This document shows positions 26,385 through 36,831 of a DNA stretch of 64,000 bases, one piece after another. The notes below the pieces were generated by a model. That model had not been told where the DNA came from and ran no database searches. It saw only the letters and a program-made list of their open reading frames with translations. Origin of the DNA: Wenzhouxiangella marina (GTDB taxonomy: Bacteria; Pseudomonadota; Gammaproteobacteria; Xanthomonadales; Wenzhouxiangellaceae); assembly GCF_001187785.1 (NCBI RefSeq), contig NZ_CP012154.1, positions 2,040,501 to 2,104,500 of the forward strand, in the 5' to 3' direction. The position numbers were made by a program, and so were the translations under genes. Numbering within the stretch: the first letter of the stretch is position 1; the number at the start of each line of letters is the position of its first letter.

Positions 26385-27455
26385 TCAGCGAGCCCGCGCC
26401 AGCAGCCACCAGGCCAGTCCGGCCAGGAAGAACGGCGGCGCCAGCGCCACGACCATGACCGGCCAATTCAACAGCAGGCCCAGGTAGGTTGCGAGTTCGG
26501 TCAGCATCTGGAAACCGAGCCCCAGCACCAGCGCCCCGACCAGACGCACGCTCACCGCCCGGCTCTTCAGCGGCACGGCGGCCGTGGCCATGGCGGCCAG
26601 CACCATGACCAGGCAGGTCAGCGGCAGCGCCAGGCGCTTCCAGAGGACCATCTCGAACTCGGCCACGTCCTGGCCGCGCTGCTTCAGACCCCCGACGTAC
26701 TGCCACAAATCGCTGAGGGCGAGAGAGGCCGGGGGCAGCAGCAGCAGCTCCAGCTGCCGCGCGGTCAGGAAGGAATCCCAGCTCAGGGAGTCCAGGCGCT
26801 CGAAATAGGCCTCCGGCGAGGCGTTGAAGTCCCGGATCCGAACGTCTTCCAGCAGCCACCGACCATCCGGTCGCACGAGCGCGTCGCCCGCGCGGATCTG
26901 GCGCTGCAGCTGTCCATCCTCGGCGAACTGGTACAGGTTGATGCCGGTCGGAATCCGCCCCAGGCGAAGCTCCTGGACATTGAGAAATTCATTGCCTGAC
27001 CGGATCCACAGTCCGTGCGAGGGGTGCCAGAGCCCGCTCTCTCCCAGGGAAGCGCCCAGCAGCCGCTCAGGACTCTGCCGGATCTCCGGGGTGACCCACT
27101 GCAGCGCGGACAGCGCCAGCAAGGAAACCACCAGGCCCGGAATCAGCGCCAGGCCGGTCAAGCGCCAGATCGACAGACCGGAGACTCTGAGAATGGTCAG
27201 TTCATTGCGTGCCTGCAGGCTGCCCATGGCCGCCGCCGTCGCCAGGACGGTGATCACGGGCAGCAGGTCGATCAGACCCTCTGGAAGCTGGCGCAAGGCC
27301 GACAGGCCGGCCAGCAACAGGTCGGCCGAGCCGGACAGGCCCTGCTCCAGATTCTCCAGCATGTGCAAGAGCCAGAGCAATGCCCCGATGGCCGTGGCCG
27401 CCACCAGGTAGGCCCCGCCCAGGGTGTTGAGCAGATAGCGCGTCGACAGCTTCAC
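26385..27455 (-). CDS. lptG: LPS export permease LptG
   Basis: 356 residues from a GTG at 27455 that overlaps the lptF stop (GTGA). The YjgP/YjgQ family layout is clear: N-terminal segments (about 12-32, 58-80, 100-120), a large periplasmic beta-jellyroll, and three C-terminal membrane segments. LptG with LptF forms the permease that extracts LPS from the inner membrane using LptB. The open frame continues upstream through lptF antiregister sequence and is not a fusion. Confidence 0.9.
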   Translation of the reverse strand: MKLSTRYLLNTLGGAYLVAATAIGALLWLLHMLENLEQGLSGSADLLLAGLSALRQLPEGLIDLLPVITVLATAAAMGSLQARNELTILRVSGLSIWRLTGLALIPGLVVSLLALSALQWVTPEIRQSPERLLGASLGESGLWHPSHGLWIRSGNEFLNVQELRLGRIPTGINLYQFAEDGQLQRQIRAGDALVRPDGRWLLEDVRIRDFNASPEAYFERLDSLSWDSFLTARQLELLLLPPASLALSDLWQYVGGLKQRGQDVAEFEMVLWKRLALPLTCLVMVLAAMATAAVPLKSRAVSVRLVGALVLGLGFQMLTELATYLGLLLNWPVMVVALAPPFFLAGLAWWLLARAR

Positions 27456-28519
27456 AGCACGCTCCCCGGCCCACGCTGGAACAGCAGAAAGCGAGCGCCC
27501 AGGATCAGCATCAGGCTCATCGGCAACACGAACAGGCCCGGCAGCGCCGGCAGGCTGGCCTGCTCCAGCCAGTTCATCAACACGCCCAGGACGCTGAAGT
27601 ACAGGGTTCCGGCCAGGCTGGCTCCCAACACCCGAGCCGACTGACCCTGGCGCGGATTGATGCGGCTCATGGCCATGCCGAGCAGGGCCAGGGCGATCAC
27701 CGACAGCGGCGACAGGAGCCGCCACTGCAGTTCGGCTCGTTCGATGGGGCTGTCGTGTGCCAGCAACTCGGTCGTGGACATCGCCCGCCTGAGCTGCTCG
27801 CGGCGCGGCGGCGGTCGCGTCTCGAACTCGACCTCGAAGCGGTCGAAGTGCCCGATCAGATCGTCCTCGCCGCCCGGAACGATGCGATAGCTCTGCACAT
27901 TGCCGGTGAAGATCAATCGCATCCGGTCTTCCTGGGCCACGGCCTGCTCGAGACGCTCGGCCCGAAGCACGCCCTGAAAACCGGGCTGGCGCTGATGCAC
28001 GAGAACCTGATCGAGCCCACCGTTCGAAGCGGACTCGGCATAGATCAGCCACTGCTGATCACCGACCTGGAAGCGCCCGGGCTCGATGCGGCTCAGGTCC
28101 AGCTCGGCGGCCAGATCCCGCTCCAGCGCATAGAGCGTCGAGTAGGCCCAGGGCCGGAACAACAGCGACAGACAGGCCACGATCAAGGCCACGATCAAGA
28201 CCCAGTAGGCCAGACCGAAGAGGATCCGCTGGCGCCCTGCTCCACCGGCCGCCATCGCTTCGATCTCGTGGCCGGCCTGCAGTCGTCCCAGACCGATGAC
28301 CACGCCCAGCAGCACCGAGGCCGGCACCAGCACATCCAGGTAGAGCATCAGTCGCAGCACGGCCATGGTCATGACCGTGCCCAGAGGCAGGCTCTCGGCC
28401 GCGGCCCGGGCCAGCAGCTGGCTGGCGTAGAAGACCAGCACGACGACCAGCAGAAAGGCCAGCACCGACAGCACGGGCCGCAGCACCTCGCGGGCAAGAT
28501 AGCGCTCGATCAGGTGCAT
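27452..28519 (-). CDS. lptF: LPS export permease LptF
   Basis: 355 residues from the ATG at 28519. Start IERYLAREVLRPVLSVLAF and the C-terminal mark RAELQWRLLSPLS ... INPRQGQSARVL match LptF. Six membrane segments with a periplasmic domain between. It overlaps the nucleotidyltransferase gene upstream by 10 bases, putting lptFG in the same transcription unit as the putative ceramide synthase. Other lptFG homes (next to pepA) are not seen, so these may be the only LPS copies or a sphingolipid-dedicated pair. Confidence 0.9.
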   Translation of the reverse strand: MHLIERYLAREVLRPVLSVLAFLLVVVLVFYASQLLARAAAESLPLGTVMTMAVLRLMLYLDVLVPASVLLGVVIGLGRLQAGHEIEAMAAGGAGRQRILFGLAYWVLIVALIVACLSLLFRPWAYSTLYALERDLAAELDLSRIEPGRFQVGDQQWLIYAESASNGGLDQVLVHQRQPGFQGVLRAERLEQAVAQEDRMRLIFTGNVQSYRIVPGGEDDLIGHFDRFEVEFETRPPPRREQLRRAMSTTELLAHDSPIERAELQWRLLSPLSVIALALLGMAMSRINPRQGQSARVLGASLAGTLYFSVLGVLMNWLEQASLPALPGLFVLPMSLMLILGARFLLFQRGPGSVL

Positions 28520-29307
28520 GGACTCGCTGGCTCGGCCGATGCACGGCAACGCGCATCGATGAGGCCTTCGACCAGGCGCAGGTCCTCCGGCGTATCCACG
28601 TCCACCGCGCTCAGCGGATCGGGCACGAGACGATAGTCGATCGAGAAGCCCAGCCGCTCGGACAGGGCCTCGAAGGCCTCATCGACGCGCAGCCGCCCGG
28701 CCAGGTAGCGTGCCAGATTGCTCCAGCCGACCAGGGAGACGATCTTCCAGGGCTTCTTGCGTTCCCGCTCGACCCGCTGCCAGAGTTCGAGCACCGCGTC
28801 GGCCCGGCGACTGCGGAACTGGAACAGGTTGGTGCCACCCAATTCGAGATCGGCAAAGCGATAGCGCGTGCGTCGACTGTCGGGGAAGCGCGCACGAACA
28901 CCCGCATGATCGACCAGGCCAACGCGCAGATCGTCCTCGCCCTCACCGCACAGGCCCTCCAGCCAGTCAGGCGACAACAGGGGATGATCCGCCGTGACCA
29001 GCATGACGGGACGCTCATCGCCCAGCGCGGCCAGGGCCTTGCCCACGCTGCGACTCGGTGAGTCGGCCGGCGCCACGAGCGTGACCGGCACGGACAGATT
29101 CGCGGCCTCGATGGCCTGTTCGTAGGCGTCCGACGCGGGGGCGACGACCGCCAGCTCTGCGGCCCGTGGCCAGGCCCCCAGGCTATCGAGCACTCGGGTC
29201 AGCATCGCTCGGCCGGCGACCGGCACCAGGGTCTTGCCGGGCACGCCGGCCTGGCGGGCCAGCGGATCGTTCGGGCCGCGATCACCGGCCAGCACGATGA
29301 CGTTCAT
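28510..29307 (-). CDS. MobA-like nucleotidyltransferase (GT-A fold)
   Basis: 265 residues. N-terminal MNVIVLAGDRG with VPGKTLVPVAGRAML is the NTP-binding signature of the MobA/CobY/RfbA group; TADHPLLS carries the metal-binding Asp and VDVDTPEDL closes the family pattern. It would transfer a nucleotidyl group to a phosphorylated small molecule. Its ATG overlaps the stop of the GNAT gene (ATGA) and its end overlaps lptF, so it sits between a ceramide-synthase candidate and a lipid exporter. A role in head-group activation is conceivable but unproven. Confidence 0.75.
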   Translation of the reverse strand: MNVIVLAGDRGPNDPLARQAGVPGKTLVPVAGRAMLTRVLDSLGAWPRAAELAVVAPASDAYEQAIEAANLSVPVTLVAPADSPSRSVGKALAALGDERPVMLVTADHPLLSPDWLEGLCGEGEDDLRVGLVDHAGVRARFPDSRRTRYRFADLELGGTNLFQFRSRRADAVLELWQRVERERKKPWKIVSLVGWSNLARYLAGRLRVDEAFEALSERLGFSIDYRLVPDPLSAVDVDTPEDLRLVEGLIDARCRASAEPASPCT

Positions 29308-30449
29308 CGGACCGCCACCGGCAGCTCGCATTCGTAGAGGCGATAACGCTTGTACAGATCACCGCCCATCGCTTCGATCATGGAGTTCATTCCGCGATTG
29401 CTTTCCAGAATCCAGCTCAGCTCGACCTGACCCACCCCATCGGCCTCGAGCGCCTGGCGGACCTGTTCGATCATCGAAAAACTCACTGCCGCTCCCATCG
29501 GACCGCGCTGGTGCGCCTTGCGAACCCCCATCAGAGGCACCCGGGCCGTCGTCGCCAGACGGCGCTTCAGACGCCAGAGCAGCCGGGCCCAGCCGAACGG
29601 CAGTAGCCGCCCATTCAGGTCGGCGATCAACTCGTTGATATTGGGCAGCGCGACGATGAAGCCGGCCGCTTCACCATCGACCTCGGCGACGCAGGTGTAG
29701 GCGGGCCGGATGATCTGGCGAAGGTCCTTGCCCATTGCCCGGAATTCTGCCCCGGTCAGCGGCACGAAGCCCCAGTTGTCGGACCAGGCATCGTTGAAGA
29801 TGTCACGCAGCAGTTCAAGCTCTTCATCATAGCGCGAAAAGTCCAGTGGCCGGAGGCGAAGGCGCCCATCCAGACGGCGAGTGAGGCGCTGCATGGCCGC
29901 CGGCGGCTCGAAGTCCGGCGGCAGCAGATAGGCGAGCAGGTCCATGGCCTTGACCAGGCCGCAGGCTTCGAGTCGTTCGGCATAGTAGGCCGGTGCATGA
30001 TTCATCATCAGCATCGGCGGCGTCTCCCGCCCTTCGACGAGCAGGCCGCAGCCCTGGTTGATCCCCAGATCGAAGGGCCCACGCAGCCAGCCACAGCCCC
30101 GCTCGCTCAACCAATCCGATGCCGCTCGGAGCAGGCCGGCGAAGACCTCGCCGTCATCGATCCCTTCGAGTTGCCCGAACCAGCCCAGCCGTCGACCGTC
30201 GACCGACGGCGCCAGACGGTCGATCTGGGCGCTGATCGTGCCCACGGCATCGTCCCCGCGCAGGGCCAGAAAGGCCTGTGCTTCGGCATGCTCGAAGAAG
30301 GGATGGCGCGCCGACCACTGATGGCGGCGCTCCATGCGCAATGGCTCGACCCAGTTCGGATCCTGACCCTGAATCCCGCGAGCGGCGCTCAGGAATCGAC
30401 GCATCGCCCGACGGTCGCTCACCGCCTCGACCCGAAGCGTCGAGTTCAT
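29304..30449 (-). CDS. GNAT-superfamily protein, candidate bacterial ceramide synthase (bCerS)
   Basis: 381 residues from the ATG at 30449 (GGAG nine bases upstream); an ATG at 30494 would add 15 residues. The N-terminal pattern DPNWVEPLRMER, then HPFFEHAEAQAFLA and GTISAQIDRL, marks a large GNAT family with two acetyltransferase-like halves. In Caulobacter a GNAT protein acylates the sphingoid base, and it is one of five enzymes needed for ceramide. The other four have counterparts just across the divergent promoter, so N-acylation of 3-ketosphinganine is the favoured role. The family has many uncharacterised members, so the function is inferred from context. Confidence 0.65.
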   Translation of the reverse strand: MNSTLRVEAVSDRRAMRRFLSAARGIQGQDPNWVEPLRMERRHQWSARHPFFEHAEAQAFLALRGDDAVGTISAQIDRLAPSVDGRRLGWFGQLEGIDDGEVFAGLLRAASDWLSERGCGWLRGPFDLGINQGCGLLVEGRETPPMLMMNHAPAYYAERLEACGLVKAMDLLAYLLPPDFEPPAAMQRLTRRLDGRLRLRPLDFSRYDEELELLRDIFNDAWSDNWGFVPLTGAEFRAMGKDLRQIIRPAYTCVAEVDGEAAGFIVALPNINELIADLNGRLLPFGWARLLWRLKRRLATTARVPLMGVRKAHQRGPMGAAVSFSMIEQVRQALEADGVGQVELSWILESNRGMNSMIEAMGGDLYKRYRLYECELPVAVR

Positions 30450-30570
30450 CGCCGGGCTCCGGACACCGGGCCGGGCCGGCCAGATGTGATCCATCTCTCA
30501 ATCCGAGGCCCCAAGCTTGCCGCAACACCTGCTGCGACCCGCGGACCGGCGGCCGCGATCGAATTGACAG

Positions 30571-30599
30571 TTTTCATCAGAGATTCGTCCACTTATAAT
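30571..30599 (+). promoter_or_regulatory. Promoter of the sphingolipid operon
   Basis: TTTTCA (30571-30576), 17-base spacer, perfect TATAAT (30594-30599). A second TATAAT follows at 30618-30623. The stretch 30560-30672 is much more AT-rich than the genes around it. Expected start of transcription near 30606, leaving a leader of about 66 bases. Confidence 0.65.
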
Positions 30600-30672
30600 G
30601 GGAGGTTATTCTGCGACTATAATAAGAACCCCAGACGGGACGCTACAACAAGCAAGGGAAACCAATATTTTG

Positions 30673-32466
30673 ATGCAGCATCCTACGCCGACCAATCATT
30701 CCCTGCCCCTCAAAACCTCCGGATTCAGAAGCCTCGCCGAGGCCCTGGACTATGCCGCGGGCGGGGAGACGGGTTGCAACTTCTACAATGGACGGGGCGA
30801 GCTGACCGAGGCGCTGACCTACGCCGAGCTGCGTGAGCAGGCCCTCGAACTCGCTTCCCGTTTGCATGCGCTCGGATTGGAGCGCGGCGCGCGGGTTGCA
30901 CTGGTGGCGGATACCCATCCGCATTTCCACGTCTTTTTCTTCGCCTGCCAGTACGCAGGCCTGGTTCCCGTGCCCCTGCCGGCCGCCGTGCACCTCGGCG
31001 GCCGGGAAGCCTTCGTCGCCCACCTGCGAGCCATGCTGGTCGACTCCCAGGCGCGCGTGGCCTTTGCTCCCGACAGCTTCGCCGCCTTCCTGGCCGAAGC
31101 CTCCGAGGGCCTGGAACTCGAAGTCTCGGGCACCCTCGCCGATTTCGCCGATCTGCCGCGCGCCGAGCGACTGCCGGAGCCGCCCGCGCCCGAAGAACTG
31201 GCCTACCTGCAGTACACCTCGGGCAGCACCCGCTTTCCCCGCGGCACGATGATCACCCAGCGGGCCGTGCTGGCCAATCTTGCCGGCATCCTGCAGTTCG
31301 GGGTCCAGATTCGCCGGGGCGACCGCTTCACCTCCTGGCTGCCCTACTACCACGACATGGGCCTGGTCGGCCTGATCCTCGGCCCACTGGTCTCCCAGCT
31401 GTCCGTGGACTACCTCGGCACGCGCGACTTCGCCATGCGTCCGCGCGTCTGGCTGAAGCTGATGTCGGCGAACCGTTCGACCATTTCCTTCAGCCCGCCG
31501 TTCGGCTACGCTCTGTGCGCCCGTAGAGTTCGCGCGAGCGATCTGGATCGCTTCGACCTGAGCTCCTGGAGAGTCGCCGGTGTGGGTGCGGAGATGATCC
31601 GCGCCAGCTGGCTGAAACGATTCGCCGATGCGCTGGCCCCGGCCGGCTTCTCGCCGGCGGCCTTCCTGCCCTGCTATGGAATGGCGGAATGCTCCCTCGC
31701 GGTCAGCTTCGCACCCCTGGGCCAGGGCATCGACGTCGATCTCCTCGACGCGGACGTCCTCGCCCAGGATCGTCACGCTCGTCCGGCCAGCGCGGACCTG
31801 GACGACACGCGCATCACCGAGTTCGTCAACTGCGGGCGCCCCCTGCCGGACTACGAAGTCGAGATTCGCGCCGCGGACGGTTCCCTCGTCGCCGAGCGCG
31901 AATGCGGCGTGATCTACCTGCGCGGCCCCAGCGTCATGAGCGGCTACGCGAACAACGAGGAAGCCAGCCGCGAAGCGCTGAGCCACGATGGCTGGCTGAA
32001 CACGGGCGATGTCGGCTACCGTGCCGGCGACAGCCTGTTCATCACCGGGCGCGCCAAGGACCTGCTGATCATCAATGGCCGCAACATCTGGCCGCAGGAC
32101 CTCGAGGAAGTCGCCGAACAGCAGCCTGAAGTGCGCGCCGAAGACGCTTCGGCCTTTTCGATCCCCGGTGAAGACGGCACCGAAGTCGCCGTGCTGGTCG
32201 TCCAGTGCCGAGAGCGCGACGCCTTCCGCCAGGCCGATCTCGTCGAGCGCCTCAAGCAGCGCATCCAGTCCGAGTTCGGAATCGCCTGCCTGATCGAGCT
32301 GGTGCCCTTGCATACCCTGCCACGCACCTCCTCCGGCAAGCTGTCGCGAAGCGGCGCTCGCCTGGACTTCCTGCGTCGCAACGGCCTCGAATCCCGCCCG
32401 GTGCTGTCCCAGGAACTGGTCGATCGGACGCCCCACACCGACGCGGTCGAAACTTCCCGCGGCTGA
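30673..32466 (+). CDS. Fatty acyl-AMP ligase / acyl-ACP synthetase (AasR-like)
   Basis: 597 residues from the ATG at 30673 (TTG at 30670 also possible). ANL superfamily: YTSGSTRFPRG (from residue 181) binds ATP, GRAKDLLIINGRNIWPQDLE is typical of fatty acyl-AMP ligases, and SSGKLSR holds the C-terminal catalytic Lys. It would activate a fatty acid as acyl-AMP and load it on the acyl carrier protein encoded two genes downstream, giving the acyl donor for serine palmitoyltransferase. First gene of a four-gene unit with its own promoter. Confidence 0.87.
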   Translation: MQHPTPTNHSLPLKTSGFRSLAEALDYAAGGETGCNFYNGRGELTEALTYAELREQALELASRLHALGLERGARVALVADTHPHFHVFFFACQYAGLVPVPLPAAVHLGGREAFVAHLRAMLVDSQARVAFAPDSFAAFLAEASEGLELEVSGTLADFADLPRAERLPEPPAPEELAYLQYTSGSTRFPRGTMITQRAVLANLAGILQFGVQIRRGDRFTSWLPYYHDMGLVGLILGPLVSQLSVDYLGTRDFAMRPRVWLKLMSANRSTISFSPPFGYALCARRVRASDLDRFDLSSWRVAGVGAEMIRASWLKRFADALAPAGFSPAAFLPCYGMAECSLAVSFAPLGQGIDVDLLDADVLAQDRHARPASADLDDTRITEFVNCGRPLPDYEVEIRAADGSLVAERECGVIYLRGPSVMSGYANNEEASREALSHDGWLNTGDVGYRAGDSLFITGRAKDLLIINGRNIWPQDLEEVAEQQPEVRAEDASAFSIPGEDGTEVAVLVVQCRERDAFRQADLVERLKQRIQSEFGIACLIELVPLHTLPRTSSGKLSRSGARLDFLRRNGLESRPVLSQELVDRTPHTDAVETSRG

Positions 32467-32492
32467 TCGCCGCGGGTTCCCCACGCACGCCC

Positions 32493-33419
32493 ATGGCCAG
32501 GATCGCCCTGACCGGCGCCAGCGGCTTCGTGGGGCGCCACCTGCTCGCCGCCCTGCTCGAGGGCGGCCATGAGATCCGGGCCCTGGTTCGTCACCCCGAA
32601 CAACTGCCGGGCCGCCATCAGCTCACCCCCGTTCGAGGTCGCCTGGACGACAGCGAGGCCCTGGGCGAGCTCGTCTCCGACGTCGACGCCATCATCCACC
32701 TCGCCGGAGCCACGGCCGGAATCGACTACGCCGAGCTGGCCCGTGTCAACGCCATCGGCACGGCCCGCCTGGCCGAGGCCGCCGAACTGCACGCCCCTGG
32801 CGCGCGCTTCATCCACCTGTCCAGCCTGGCCGCACGTCGCCCCGAGCTATCGGACTACGCGGCCAGCAAGCGAGCCGGCGAAGACCTGCTCGTCGACCGC
32901 GAGCTCGATTGGGTCATCCTGCGCGCACCCGCCATCTACGGGCCGGACGATCCCGCCCTGGAACCCCTCTGGCAGGCGCTTTCCAGGGGCTGGCTGGTCC
33001 GCACCGGGCCGCCCCGGGCCCGCTTTTCCCTGCTGCACGTCGATGACCTGGCCTCGGCGCTGATGACGCTGGCGGTCACGCCGCAGGCGGCGCAGCACCG
33101 GGTCTTCGAGCTCGATGACGGCCACCCCGGCGCCTACGGCTGGCCGGAGCTGCGCCAGCTGGCAACGGAACAGCGTGGTCGGCCGGTCCGGGAGCTGCCG
33201 GTGCCGAAGATGGCCCTGCGCCTGCTCGGGCACGCCAATCTGCTGCTGGCCCGTCTGCATCGCCGGCGTCCGCCCCCGCTGGTGCCAGGCAAGGTGCGTG
33301 AACTGGTCCATCACGACTGGGTCTGTGATAATAGTGGGCTTCCCGGTTGTCCCGACTGGACTCCGAAGTACACATTGAAAACCGCCCTGCCGACGCTGCC
33401 GGGCTGGAGAGACGCTTGA
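32493..33419 (+). CDS. Extended SDR, CerR-like ceramide reductase candidate
   Basis: 308 residues. NAD(P)-binding GASGFVG (residues 8-14) and the catalytic pair Y122/K126 in YAASK, with HLSS ahead of it. NAD-dependent epimerase/dehydratase family. In Caulobacter an enzyme of this family, encoded beside spt, reduces the 3-keto group of the acylated sphingoid base. Its stop TGA overlaps the acyl carrier protein ATG. Without the neighbours it would only be called an epimerase. Confidence 0.75.
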   Translation: MARIALTGASGFVGRHLLAALLEGGHEIRALVRHPEQLPGRHQLTPVRGRLDDSEALGELVSDVDAIIHLAGATAGIDYAELARVNAIGTARLAEAAELHAPGARFIHLSSLAARRPELSDYAASKRAGEDLLVDRELDWVILRAPAIYGPDDPALEPLWQALSRGWLVRTGPPRARFSLLHVDDLASALMTLAVTPQAAQHRVFELDDGHPGAYGWPELRQLATEQRGRPVRELPVPKMALRLLGHANLLLARLHRRRPPPLVPGKVRELVHHDWVCDNSGLPGCPDWTPKYTLKTALPTLPGWRDA

Positions 33420-33679
33420 TGAACACGAGCACCCGAAACCGGGTCGATGACGCCATCGGCAAGGCCCTGTCCATCGCCCTGCCCGAACTCGAACAACCCA
33501 ACCGCGATGCGGCCCTGACCAGCGACATGGGCCTGGATTCGGTCCAGATCATGAACCTGGTGATGGAAATCGAAGACGAACTCGACATTTCCATTCCCGT
33601 GGATCTGCTGTCGGAGACGCGCACCCTCAATGAACTGGCCGCACGCCTCGTGGCCCTGATCGACGAGGACGGCGCATGA
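33419..33679 (+). CDS. Acyl carrier protein, sphingolipid-dedicated (AcpR-like)
   Basis: 86 residues, acidic four-helix carrier. Ser41 in GLDSVQIM is the phosphopantetheine site. It is distinct from the housekeeping AcpP and sits between the SDR gene (one-base overlap) and the serine palmitoyltransferase gene (ATGA overlap), so the three are translationally coupled. It would present the fatty acyl chain to the transferase. Confidence 0.9.
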   Translation: MNTSTRNRVDDAIGKALSIALPELEQPNRDAALTSDMGLDSVQIMNLVMEIEDELDISIPVDLLSETRTLNELAARLVALIDEDGA

Positions 33680-34893
33680 GCCTGTTCGACAAGTTCGCCA
33701 AGCTGGCCGAAGCCCGCGCCGCTCTGGGTGCCGAGGGCCCGTCCGCCATCGCCACGCCGATCGAGTCGGTGGAATCGGCCAGCCGCGGACGCATCGCAGG
33801 CCGGGAAGTGATCCTGGCCGGAACCAACAACTACCTCGGCCTGACCTTCGACCCGGACGTCATCGCTGCCGGCCGAGAGGCCCTGGAACGGCTCGGCAGC
33901 GGCACCACGGGATCTCGCATGGCCAACGGCAGCTACGCCGGTCACCGCGCCCTGGAAGCCGAGCTGGCCGCCGCCTTCGGCTGGCCTTCGGCGATCGTGT
34001 TCTCGACCGGCTATCAGGCCAATCTCGGCACCCTTTCAGGCCTGGCCGGCGACGGCGATTACCTGCTGGTCGATGCCGACAGCCACGCCAGCATCTACGA
34101 CGGCTGCCGCCTGAGCCGCGCCCAGACCGTCGTCTTCCGCCACAACGATCCGGACAACCTGGACCGCCGCCTGAGCCGCCTCGGTGACCGGGCCAGCAAC
34201 GCCCTGGTCGTGGTCGAGGGCCTGTACTCGATGCTGGGCGACCAGCCGCCGCTGGAGGAATTCGTCGAGGTCAAGAAGCGCCACGGTGCCTGGCTGGTGG
34301 TCGACGAAGCGCACAGCTTCGGCGTCTTCGGCGAGCGCGGCCTGGGTCTGGGCGAAGCCGCCGGCCTGCTCGACGACATCGACTTCGTGGTCGGGACCTT
34401 TTCCAAAAGCCTGGCCGGCATCGGCGGCTTCTGCGTCAGCCGCCACCCCGAGCTCGAACTGCTGCGCCTGGCCAGTCGCCCCTATATCTTCACTGCCTCG
34501 CCTTCGCCGGCCGTCATCGCCTCGACGCGGGTCGCCCTGGACAAGGTCCTGCAGGGTCAGGCCCTGCGCGAGCGCCTGCATCGCAACATCCGCCGCCTGT
34601 ACGAGGGCGCCGAGGCGATGGGCTACCGACTCGGCAGCGAACAGCCCGGCCCCGTGGCGGCTCTGATCCTGCCCGACCGTGCCACCGCCCTGGCCCACTG
34701 GCAGGGCCTGCTCGAGGCCGGCGTCTATGCCAACCTGATGATTCCGCCAGCCACCCCGGCAGGCCTGAATCTGCTGCGCATCAGCATGAGTGCGGCGCAC
34801 AGCGACGAGGACGTCGACCGCATCCTTGCAGCCCTTCAGGACATGGCCGCCGCCATGCCGTCCCAGGCGCCCTCCAGCGCCGTTTCGGCCTGA
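33676..34893 (+). CDS. spt: Serine palmitoyltransferase-like alpha-oxoamine synthase
   Basis: 405 residues, PLP-dependent. Schiff-base Lys244 in GTFSKSLAGIGGF, DEAHSFG (210-216) and GSGTTGSRMANGSYAGH near residues 74-90. The family includes AONS (BioF), KBL and ALAS; the FSKS form and the carrier-protein/acyl-ligase context point to serine palmitoyltransferase, which condenses serine with an acyl thioester to 3-ketosphinganine. BioF is the alternative, but no biotin genes are nearby. Confidence 0.87.
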   Translation: MSLFDKFAKLAEARAALGAEGPSAIATPIESVESASRGRIAGREVILAGTNNYLGLTFDPDVIAAGREALERLGSGTTGSRMANGSYAGHRALEAELAAAFGWPSAIVFSTGYQANLGTLSGLAGDGDYLLVDADSHASIYDGCRLSRAQTVVFRHNDPDNLDRRLSRLGDRASNALVVVEGLYSMLGDQPPLEEFVEVKKRHGAWLVVDEAHSFGVFGERGLGLGEAAGLLDDIDFVVGTFSKSLAGIGGFCVSRHPELELLRLASRPYIFTASPSPAVIASTRVALDKVLQGQALRERLHRNIRRLYEGAEAMGYRLGSEQPGPVAALILPDRATALAHWQGLLEAGVYANLMIPPATPAGLNLLRISMSAAHSDEDVDRILAALQDMAAAMPSQAPSSAVSA

Positions 34894-34985
34894 GAGCGCG
34901 AGTACAGCAGCACCCATAGCACCGTGGCCGCCCTCGACGGCGGCCCGGATTCGATACACTTGATTCTTTGACCATCGAGCACGTC

Positions 34986-35597
34986 ATGAACTTCCCGCAA
35001 CCCTTCTACCGCTGGCGACCGCACCCCTGGCATGGCCTCGACACCGGCCGCAACCCGCCGCTGGACATCCACGCCTACATCGAAATCACGCCCTTCGATA
35101 CGGTCAAGTACGAGATCGACAAGAAGACCGGCTACCTGCGCGTGGATCGCCCGCAGCGCACCTCCTCGCAGCCGCCGACGCTCTATGGCTTCGTCCCGCG
35201 CACCTTCTGCGGCGACCGCGTCGGCGCCCTGATGCCCAACGCCACTCGTGGTGACGGCGATCCCCTCGACATCTGCGTATTCAGCGAACGCCCGATCTCG
35301 CGCAGCGAAGTGCTGCTCAACGCCCGCGTCATCGGTGGCCTGCAGATGCTCGATCACGGCGAGGCAGACGACAAGATCGTCGCCGTGCTGGAGAACGACA
35401 GCCTGTGGGGCGAAGCCGAAGACATCACCGACCTGCCCCCGAGCCTGGCCGAACGCCTGCGCCACTACTTCCTGACCTACAAGCTGCTGCCGGGCGAAGA
35501 GGCCGAGATCTCCATCGACAAGATCTACGGCCGCGACCACGCCGCCAAGGTCGTCGAAGCCTCCGTGCTGGACTACCAGGACGAATTCGGCGGCTGA
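34986..35597 (+). CDS. ppa: Family I inorganic pyrophosphatase
   Basis: 203 residues from the ATG at 34986. Metal-binding [12 protein letters not shown], the start [14 protein letters not shown] and LDYQDEFGG at the end. It is the longer class of soluble Mg-dependent pyrophosphatase. It hydrolyses the pyrophosphate released by reactions such as acyl-AMP formation. It stands 92 bases after spt in the same direction, so it may be co-transcribed, or simply be the housekeeping enzyme. Confidence 0.92.
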
Positions 35598-35859: not shown

Positions 35860-36831
35860 TCAGCGCGGGTCCAGGTGAACCATGAAGGAGCCGGTGCTGC
35901 TGCCGTAGCCGCTGACGACCAGCTGGTACTGGCCGGCCGGCAGGGCGTACTCGATCTTGCAGTTGAAGTCTTCGTCCCCGTCGTCGTTCTCGTCCATCAC
36001 TTCACCGTTCGATGAACGCAGCTCGCAGAAGGTGTCCGTGTCACCGCTGGTCCGCATGATGTAGCGACCATCCTGGGCGATGTCGAACTCGAACAGCACG
36101 CGATCTCCAGAGTCGGCGATCCGCGAGGCCATGGCCTGTCCCAGGGTCAGGGTGAAGCTCTCCATCTCGTTGCGCTCGACCATGAAGGTCGGCGAACCGC
36201 TTTCTTCGCTGTAGCTCGCGATCATGACGGTGTAGCGACCCGGTTCCAGGCGTCGCGACAGGCCGCAATTGAAGCCGTCGCCGTCATCGTCGTTGCTGGC
36301 GAGCTCCGTGCCATCGGCGCTGAACAGGGTACAGACCGTGTCCAGCTGGCCGGAGGTGCTCATCCGGTAGTCACCGGCTTCGGTGATCTCGAAGTCCCGA
36401 GCCGAGGGCTGGTGAGCTTCGACCTGCACGGTCGAGACCTGGCCGACGTTGATGGATTCGCTCGGTACGCGCTTGGCGGTGATGTAGGCCTCGCCGCGAT
36501 CGTCCGTGTCGAAGCCGCCGACCTCGATCTGATAGTTGCCCGCGTCCAGGCGGGTCAGCAGCAGGCAGTTGAAGCCCGAGCCGCTGTCATCGTCTTCGGC
36601 GAGCATCGCACCGGCCTCGCTGAAGACCTTGCAGACCACGTCTTCTTCGCCTTCGGAGAAGATCGAGTAGAAGCCGGCTTCGCTGACACTGAAGTCGAGA
36701 CGGGTGTCGGTGAAGCCGACGTCGATGCGCGTGCGTTCACCTTCGTGCAGGGTACTGGAGCCGCCACAGGCGGTCAGCAGCAGGGCCGGCAGCAGCGCTG
36801 CACCGCCCAGTCGATTGATGTGCTTGTTCAT
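35860..36831 (-). CDS. Lipoprotein with three PPC-like beta-sandwich repeats
   Basis: 323 residues. Lipobox LLTAC with Cys22. Three repeats of about 100 residues (about 35-120, 140-220, 240-323), each like a bacterial pre-peptidase C-terminal domain. Each has a Cys pair with exactly 22 residues' spacing: C67/C89, C167/C189, C269/C291, likely disulfides. Before the second Cys is an Asp-rich loop (EDDDSGSGFNC, NDDDGDGFNC, NDDGDEDFNC) that could bind calcium. No catalytic domain is present. Predicted envelope-anchored; function unknown. Confidence 0.8.
   Translation of the reverse strand: MNKHINRLGGAALLPALLLTACGGSSTLHEGERTRIDVGFTDTRLDFSVSEAGFYSIFSEGEEDVVCKVFSEAGAMLAEDDDSGSGFNCLLLTRLDAGNYQIEVGGFDTDDRGEAYITAKRVPSESINVGQVSTVQVEAHQPSARDFEITEAGDYRMSTSGQLDTVCTLFSADGTELASNDDDGDGFNCGLSRRLEPGRYTVMIASYSEESGSPTFMVERNEMESFTLTLGQAMASRIADSGDRVLFEFDIAQDGRYIMRTSGDTDTFCELRSSNGEVMDENDDGDEDFNCKIEYALPAGQYQLVVSGYGSSTGSFMVHLDPR

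Follow-up and report, generated by a model that had tools for sequence, protein, structure and literature searches.

A predicted ceramide-synthesis and sphingolipid-export locus in Wenzhouxiangella marina

Gene order and identity of the enzymes

The genome of Wenzhouxiangella marina is a single contig of 3.68 Mb (99.99% complete), of which we analysed a stretch of 64,000 nucleotides (positions 2040501-2104500), hereafter called the window. It harbours two divergent groups of genes which, judged from their sequences, very probably form the ceramide-synthesis and sphingolipid-export core of this species, the reactions, the lipid and the role in transport being predicted. Five genes of ceramide type are present as intact open frames between window positions 29304 and 34893. 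The right arm, on the forward strand, encodes in this order an aasR-like fatty acyl-AMP ligase/acyl-acyl carrier protein (ACP) synthetase (30673-32466), a cerR-like short-chain dehydrogenase/reductase (SDR; 32493-33419), an acpR-like specialised ACP (33419-33679) and a serine palmitoyltransferase (Spt; 33676-34893). The SDR and ACP genes overlap by 1 base, the ACP and synthase genes by 4 bases. The left arm, on the reverse strand, is an overlapping operon of a GNAT N-acyltransferase gene (29304-30449), a MobA/CofC-like nucleotidyltransferase gene (28510-29307) and the LptF/LptG-family permease genes lptF2 (27452-28519) and lptG2 (26385-27455), with overlaps of 4, 10 and 4 bases. An earlier note on this DNA had described ligase, SDR, ACP and oxoamine synthase genes in one direction, the last three overlapping, with a divergent GNAT gene, and the coordinates bear this out. 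Its range for the locus, 28510-34893, does contain the five genes, and begins where it does because it includes the nucleotidyltransferase gene, which went unmentioned; the locus is larger, and extends to the nucleotidyltransferase, to the second lptF/lptG genes and to a head-group operon at a distance, all of which had been missed.

The synthase passes the NCBIfam model for serine palmitoyltransferase (NF047599, 588.9 bits against a cut-off of 500) and stays below the cut-offs of the sister model NF047603 (471/670), of BioF (324.4/426.45) and of the KBL model PRK06939 (274.2/460). Among sequences of solved structures its top eight matches are all Spt (406-446 bits, the best being 2x8u with 446) and two further Spt score 250 bits; the best KBL/BioF sequence reaches 207 bits, cysteate-C-fatty acyltransferase 184 and CqsA chains 122. 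In a tree of 91 oxoamine synthases, made by a quick method and containing several long branches, the window protein lies among 75 rows together with the Spt of Caulobacter and Azotobacter, from which 16 KBL/BioF-like paralogs of the same genus split with an SH-aLRT support of 99. The Spt label applies to 74 of these 75 rows, the window protein included (L136 has 447 bits, the label threshold being 450 bits), and its nearest neighbours beyond the genus are a pair of Burkholderiales records (L199, L219). By sequence comparison the synthase falls in the Spt clade and not with BioF/KBL, which answers the phylogenetic check proposed in the earlier note. A BioF/KBL reading was rejected, since the respective cut-offs are not reached and the tree places the synthase with Spt.

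No Pfam or NCBIfam family matched the GNAT protein at E <= 0.001, the best match below threshold being Acetyltransf_1 (E 0.007, 17.1 bits against a cut-off of 20.7), and a PDB sequence search with its profile gave no match at E <= 1. The label holds nevertheless because an AlphaFold2 model (pLDDT 92.2) predicts a tandem-GNAT fold, with the tandem GNAT 7q3a as best match (Z 24.3, rmsd 3.3, 304 residues aligned) and N-myristoyltransferases matching at Z ~16. The protein is 47-52% identical to proteins in the same neighbourhood of Caulobacter, Azotobacter and Pseudomonas. Its Caulobacter relative (47-51% identity; records from species other than C. crescentus) is sited after lptF-lptG and before a nucleotidyltransferase gene, which is the order of CC_1156 to CC_1153 given in PMC11324152. 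Identity and neighbourhood place the GNAT protein, as the earlier note had expected, with the Caulobacter and Azotobacter proteins in the position of the bacterial ceramide synthase (bCerS), and it is a predicted ceramide synthase itself.

The aasR-like ligase scores 777.7 bits with PRK09192 (cut-off 600) and is 46-53% identical to its Caulobacter S45, Azotobacter, Pseudomonas and Stutzerimonas neighbours. In the ACP (PF00550, PP-binding, E 2.8e-12) the DS of the phosphopantetheine site is invariant in 6/6 aligned sequences. The SDR, a putative ketosphinganine/ketoceramide reductase of Epimerase type (PF01370, E 3.5e-25), is 34-41% identical to homologs in the Caulobacter, Azotobacter and Pseudomonas clusters. 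It begins straight at its Rossmann motif (MARIALTGASGFVG), with no space for a signal peptide; Caulobacter CerR was reported to be periplasmic, and the order of acylation and reduction in ceramide synthesis is disputed (PMC11087976).

Family models, identities and the predicted GNAT fold thus confirm counterparts of all five Caulobacter ceramide families, as the earlier note had claimed. With a serine palmitoyltransferase, AasR and AcpR beside spt (by homology and place), a predicted CerR-type SDR (by identity to the cluster homologs) and a GNAT ceramide synthase in a divergent transcription unit of its own, as in the Rhodobacterial ceramide pathway, the ceramide locus is a sound member of the published pathway. 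A Nat Chem Biol paper of 2022 is said to treat the convergent evolution of ceramide synthesis. The five-gene pathway, with cerS in a separate operon, has been described for alpha-, beta- and gammaproteobacteria, together with the idea of an LptC2/F2/G2 set (PMC11324152, PMC9386255); the five genes were reported together in C. crescentus and E. coli BL21 (PMC9386255), and the clusters of A. vinelandii and P. luteola are treated in PMC11324152.

A search of positions 30400-35100 for sigma-70-like sites gave one site against 0.4 expected in shuffled sequence, TTTTCA-17-TATAAT on the forward strand upstream of the aasR-like gene (30571-30599), a match to the consensus only. Because of this site, the start of the ligase at 30673 is likelier than the open reading frame start at 30598. 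The clustering of all five genes, which the earlier note placed around one promoter region, is real but not special, the same divergent layout being found in Azotobacter and Pseudomonas. Adjoining the locus, at 35860-36831, is a protein with PPC/DVUA0089-type matches and no evident link to it.

The second LptF/LptG pair and the distribution of the locus

Both permeases match PF03739 (lptG2 with 191.2 bits, lptF2 with 191.5 bits); their starts, a GTG in lptG2, were chosen by us and give open frames. The genome holds two lptF/lptG pairs, the other one at genome positions 557474-559593. This second site adjoins a peptidase M17 gene, which we take to be the usual place of the lipopolysaccharide (LPS) pair. 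LpxC is present once in the genome, so LPS is probably made as well. The window pair is thus a second LptF/LptG pair, as a dedicated Lpt set for sphingolipids (LptC2/F2/G2) would require. A tree built from 66 LptF/LptG proteins gave the same picture for both permeases. The copy in the window and those of six relatives in the genus, all from sphingolipid loci, group with ten copies linked to sphingolipid genes in Azotobacter, Pseudomonas, Stutzerimonas, Nitrosomonadaceae, Desulfobulbaceae, Litorirhabdus and a record labelled Klebsiella (SH-aLRT 98 for LptF and 88 for LptG), and the 11 LPS-type copies of the genus form a separate clade (support 100). The window genes as the LPS pair were rejected, given the site of the other pair by peptidase M17 and the place of the window copies in the sphingolipid-linked clade. 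The adjacent nucleotidyltransferase (PF12804, E 2e-14; weak CofC match below cut-off) is a homolog of Caulobacter CC_1153 and 35-39% identical to the product of the gene after GNAT in Caulobacter spp., Azotobacter, Pseudomonas and Stutzerimonas. The cluster also occurs in a metagenome-assembled genome (MAG) labelled Klebsiella pneumoniae (L206), whose Spt forms a long branch and whose LptF and LptG stand beside Nitrosomonadaceae, so that the label may be wrong.

Among the genus genomes with GNAT, lptF, nucleotidyltransferase and GNAT genes are adjacent in 17/17, and their linkage is therefore not due to chance. The divergent acyl-AMP ligase gene lies beside them in 15/17, the contig stopping at GNAT in the other two (L019, L029). 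Eighty named GNAT loci, fragmentary ones included, were the best 80 of at least 570 confirmed relatives and describe close relatives only; 55 of them contain an LptF match, 52 an LptG match and 64 the nucleotidyltransferase. Gene positions in the loci of relatives (e.g. L161) rest on profile matches, as automated frame calling is partly wrong there.

Across 397 Pseudomonadota genomes, GNAT was found in 48 and Spt over the cut-off in 39. All 39 Spt genomes carry GNAT, compared with 9 of the 358 others (Fisher p 1e-45, a value that ignores relatedness). Named controls for Spt were Caulobacter vibrioides, which matches, E. coli and Bacteroides ihuae, two of the three being over the cut-off. Within a genus set of 25 genomes, 17 have GNAT, and Spt exceeds the cut-off in 15 of these as against none of the eight GNAT-less genomes; G014 has two partial Spt matches, each on a different contig, and the GNAT gene of G012 is situated where its contig ends. 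LptF/LptG matches number four in 12 of the GNAT genomes, two in G004, three in G021, five in G015 and six each in G013 and G016, and in GNAT-less genomes two in 7/8 and none in G008. The third pair of G013 and G016 (L261-L264) lies in the LPS-type clade and is either an extra copy or stems from foreign contigs. In an LpxC tree of 21 genomes (21 of 22 rows, G002 being left out as its fragment failed the orientation check, and G001, G004 and G014 having no LpxC match) the eight GNAT-less genomes form one clade, with support of 100/98 from DNA and 84/94 from protein.

A GNAT match of 66 residues in the order-level genome G027 (E 4.7e-4) contains an internal stop and was not counted. Outside Pseudomonadota, two contigs of Gemmatimonadetes MAGs (L196, L198) carry Spt, ACP, acyl-AMP ligase, GNAT and kinase genes together.

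A second operon with candidate head-group genes

A search with DAGK_cat led to a second operon at genome positions 1,749,643-1,758,420 (L071), 0.3 Mb from the window locus. Its seven genes encode, in this order, an FA_desaturase (PF00487) desaturase/hydroxylase, a CpgB-like kinase with DAGK_cat match, a CpgC-like protein without Pfam match, an ABC transporter resembling MsbA though far below the MsbA cut-off (230/602 bits), a lipid-A-acyltransferase-family (LpxL-like) protein, an ELM1-type protein and a 2OG-Fe(II) oxygenase. The ELM1-type protein has 751 residues with the ELM1 domain at 390-662; Pfam gave only matches below cut-off on its first 390 residues. All seven genes recur in the same order in W. 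marina and eight sister genomes (L073, L074, L227, L228, L230, L231, L232, L234), and the series is visible in L229, L233, L086 and L082 for the part covered by the stretch; L072 has six of the seven, with no desaturase match. As far as the stretch covers, it directly follows spt in G018 (L073), G024 (L072), G004 (L086) and G021 (L082).

By neighbourhood and 31-39% identity, the CpgC-like protein is the counterpart of CC_1161/CpgC. Its gene was found in 14/25 genus genomes, all of them GNAT-bearing, and is absent from the GNAT-bearing G001, G012 and G015. A model of a Wenzhouxiangella member (31 sequences, pLDDT 88.7) resembles Tam41, a CTP-using CDP-diacylglycerol (CDP-DAG) synthase (Z 18.0, rmsd 3.1 over 219 residues, 15% identity; Foldseek E 1.9e-6), whereas the best nucleotidyltransferase other than Tam41 reaches Z 7.5. 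A CDP-DAG synthase InterPro domain has been noted in CC_1161 and a nucleotide-activated ceramide suggested (PMC11324152), an idea which the predicted Tam41 fold strengthens. CpgB is a ceramide kinase (PMC10331486). Both CpgB and CpgC of the Caulobacter CPG2 pathway have homologs in the second operon. CpgD makes CDP-glycerate (PMC12275187; preprint PMC13228409). CpgA (CC_1159) had no match in W. marina and partial matches in 3/25 genus genomes (best E 1.9e-5 over 69 residues), the query being a CDP-OH_P_transf protein of Pseudomonas asuensis, 40% identical to the Caulobacter protein in CpgA position. Since CpgA is needed for CPG2, the head group probably differs from CPG2. NeuB-like genes run towards spt in L075, L077, L079, L080, L081, L083 and L147-L149, mostly accompanied by PseF-like and GFO/IDH/MocA-like genes and an unknown protein of 402-465 aa; in G002, G005 and G013 this set lies between spt and the head-group operon, which hints at a nonulosonate-type variant.

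Of the 32 named loci in which Spt scores above 300 bits, 10 have an MsbA-like gene (>400 bits with our model) no more than 4 kb away from spt. Nine of these ten are outside Wenzhouxiangella: Azotobacter (2), Pseudomonas, Stutzerimonas, Roseovarius, Litorirhabdus, two Desulfobulbaceae and one gammaproteobacterial MAG. No such gene was seen beside spt in the Caulobacter loci.

Our literature searches covered papers available without subscription. They returned single passing mentions only for Wenzhouxiangella with sphingolipid, a match concerning another organism for Wenzhouxiangella polar lipids and fatty acids, and nothing joining Tam41, ceramide and Caulobacter. For a flippase or ABC transporter with sphingolipid, ceramide and Caulobacter only PMC11324152 was found, which among the matches listed was also the sole one mentioning LptF with sphingolipid.

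Proposed pathway, alternatives and known systems

In the proposed scheme, AasR would load a fatty acid onto AcpR, and Spt would condense acyl-AcpR and serine to 3-ketosphinganine. The GNAT of the divergent operon would supply the N-acyltransferase and the nucleotidyltransferase one nucleotidyltransferase for the head group, so that the organism may be expected to produce ceramide. The second operon would provide the steps of head-group formation and flipping, with a desaturase/hydroxylase, a CpgB-like ceramide kinase, a putative glycosyltransferase of ELM1 type, an LpxL-like acyltransferase and a 2OG oxygenase; its Tam41-like cytidylyltransferase, the CpgC-like protein, would turn ceramide-1-phosphate into CDP-ceramide, and the MsbA relative would flip the sphingolipid. 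LptF2G2 would then extract the finished lipid from the inner membrane in the way that LPS is extracted by LptFG. Given that CpgA was not found, that MsbA-, LpxL- and ELM1-like genes are present and that the second LptFG pair belongs to a clade of its own, W. marina probably represents a variant in which the head group is a different one and export resembles that of LPS. More tentatively, and with doubts prevailing, one may think of an LPS-like sphingolipid as a second outer-membrane lipid line parallel to lipid A, in which ceramide is hydroxylated, phosphorylated, CDP-activated by the Tam41-type enzyme, further acylated by a relative of LpxL, glycosylated by the ELM1 fusion protein, flipped by a dedicated MsbA relative and exported by a dedicated LptFG pair, beside ordinary LPS.

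Several findings weigh against the proposed scheme as a whole. The GNAT-adjacent LptFG copies of Caulobacter, Niveispirillum and Hydrocarboniphaga branch apart, which speaks against a single ancient sphingolipid pair, and tblastn with the window pair gave no match to the Caulobacter proteins in LptF2/LptG2 position. The LPS-type pairs in the LptFG tree come from Wenzhouxiangella only, and the tree program flagged long branches that meet. A second LptC was not found in the genome (one PF06835 match); a second complete Lpt complex is therefore unsupported, and the remaining components of the Lpt bridge would either serve both lipids or have escaped recognition. At the cut-off used, nine genomes (G080, G131, G203, G205, G328, G356, G361, G390, G416) have GNAT without Spt, four by weak matches (E 9e-39 to 3e-48) and five by clear ones (E 4e-81 to 5e-94), so that at this threshold the presence of GNAT does not always go with that of Spt. 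The joint absence within the genus is one change, which with a midpoint root reads as one loss; many independent events were rejected on account of this single change on the LpxC tree, and the phylum-wide pattern and the gene order therefore carry more weight. In the second operon, identity of the kinase to its Caulobacter and Azotobacter neighbours is low (26-34%). Tam41 Pfam matches occur in 17/31 CpgC-like members at E <= 1 (best 2.4e-5), none of them in the modelled member, and a PDB search with the CpgC-like profile gave no Tam41 chain at E <= 10, so that the Tam41 call rests on the fold.

Among the alternatives, it is improbable, though the least so, that the window lptF/lptG genes serve LPS or are neutral passengers unrelated to sphingolipids. 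The single LptC and the position of the Caulobacter LptF2/G2 elsewhere in the tree would fit this, as would the fact that a sphingolipid role of lptF2/lptG2 is itself deduced. It is countered by the overlap with the nucleotidyltransferase and GNAT genes, the other pair by peptidase M17, the one pair kept in GNAT-less genomes, the grouping with sphingolipid-linked pairs of four other families, the frequent LptF and LptG matches (55 and 52 of the 80 named loci) and the sphingolipid-export role proposed for Caulobacter LptF2/G2 (PMC11324152). We consider it quite unlikely that alanine, glycine or cysteate takes the place of serine as substrate of the synthase, which would yield a 1-deoxyceramide or a sulfonolipid-like base; sequence tests do not read out the substrate amino acid, and 1-deoxyceramides have been reported from bacteria (PMC11334938). 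The closest solved proteins, however, are serine enzymes, cysteate-C-fatty acyltransferase scores 184 against 446 bits, and a ceramide kinase would need the C1 hydroxyl. Most improbable of all is a BioF/KBL-like or CqsA-type synthase of signals or secondary metabolites, with ligase, ACP, SDR and GNAT making a small lipo-amine: such pathways share the same domains and CqsA chains do match at 122 bits, but the Spt equivalog model is passed, the BioF model is not (324.4/426.45), the tree agrees, GNAT tracks Spt across the phylum, and the genes are linked to lptFG and kinase genes.

The value of a ceramide-synthesis and sphingolipid-export core in W. marina lies in testable answers on head-group activation and transport rather than in new chemistry. 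The authors of PMC11087976 (2024) state that they had yet to find a flippase or transporter of bacterial sphingolipids, and according to PMC12275187 (2025) CpgC acts by an unidentified mechanism. Both questions become directly testable through the conserved association of spt with an MsbA-like transporter gene and with an LptFG pair of its own clade, and through the predicted Tam41 fold of the CpgC family; the one genus clade without the locus offers a natural comparison.

Compared with known systems, the CpgC-like protein is like the mitochondrial CDP-DAG synthase Tam41 in its predicted fold and unlike it in sequence (15% identity) and in its proposed substrate, which would be ceramide-1-phosphate. 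As in Caulobacter crescentus (CC_1168-CC_1152; PMC11324152, PMC9386255), aasR, cerR, acpR and spt are present, cerS is in a separate operon with lptF2/lptG2 and a CC_1153-type nucleotidyltransferase gene, and the genome has CpgB- and CpgC-like genes. Unlike C. crescentus, W. marina has no CpgA match, one LptC by PF06835 and a head-group operon with MsbA-like, LpxL-like, ELM1 and 2OG oxygenase genes, and LptF2/G2 of Caulobacter type branch apart from the window pair. Azotobacter vinelandii and Pseudomonas asuensis (L161, L179) differ from W. marina in keeping a CDP-alcohol phosphotransferase gene after lptG (in CpgA position, the product being 40% identical to that of Caulobacter), and their loci give no LpxL-like match of >=25 bits, unlike the second operon of W. 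marina. They share with it a 50% identical MsbA-like protein, whose gene is sited after spt there, LptF and LptG of one clade, and the divergent arms aasR-cerR-acpR-spt and GNAT-nucleotidyltransferase-lptF-lptG.

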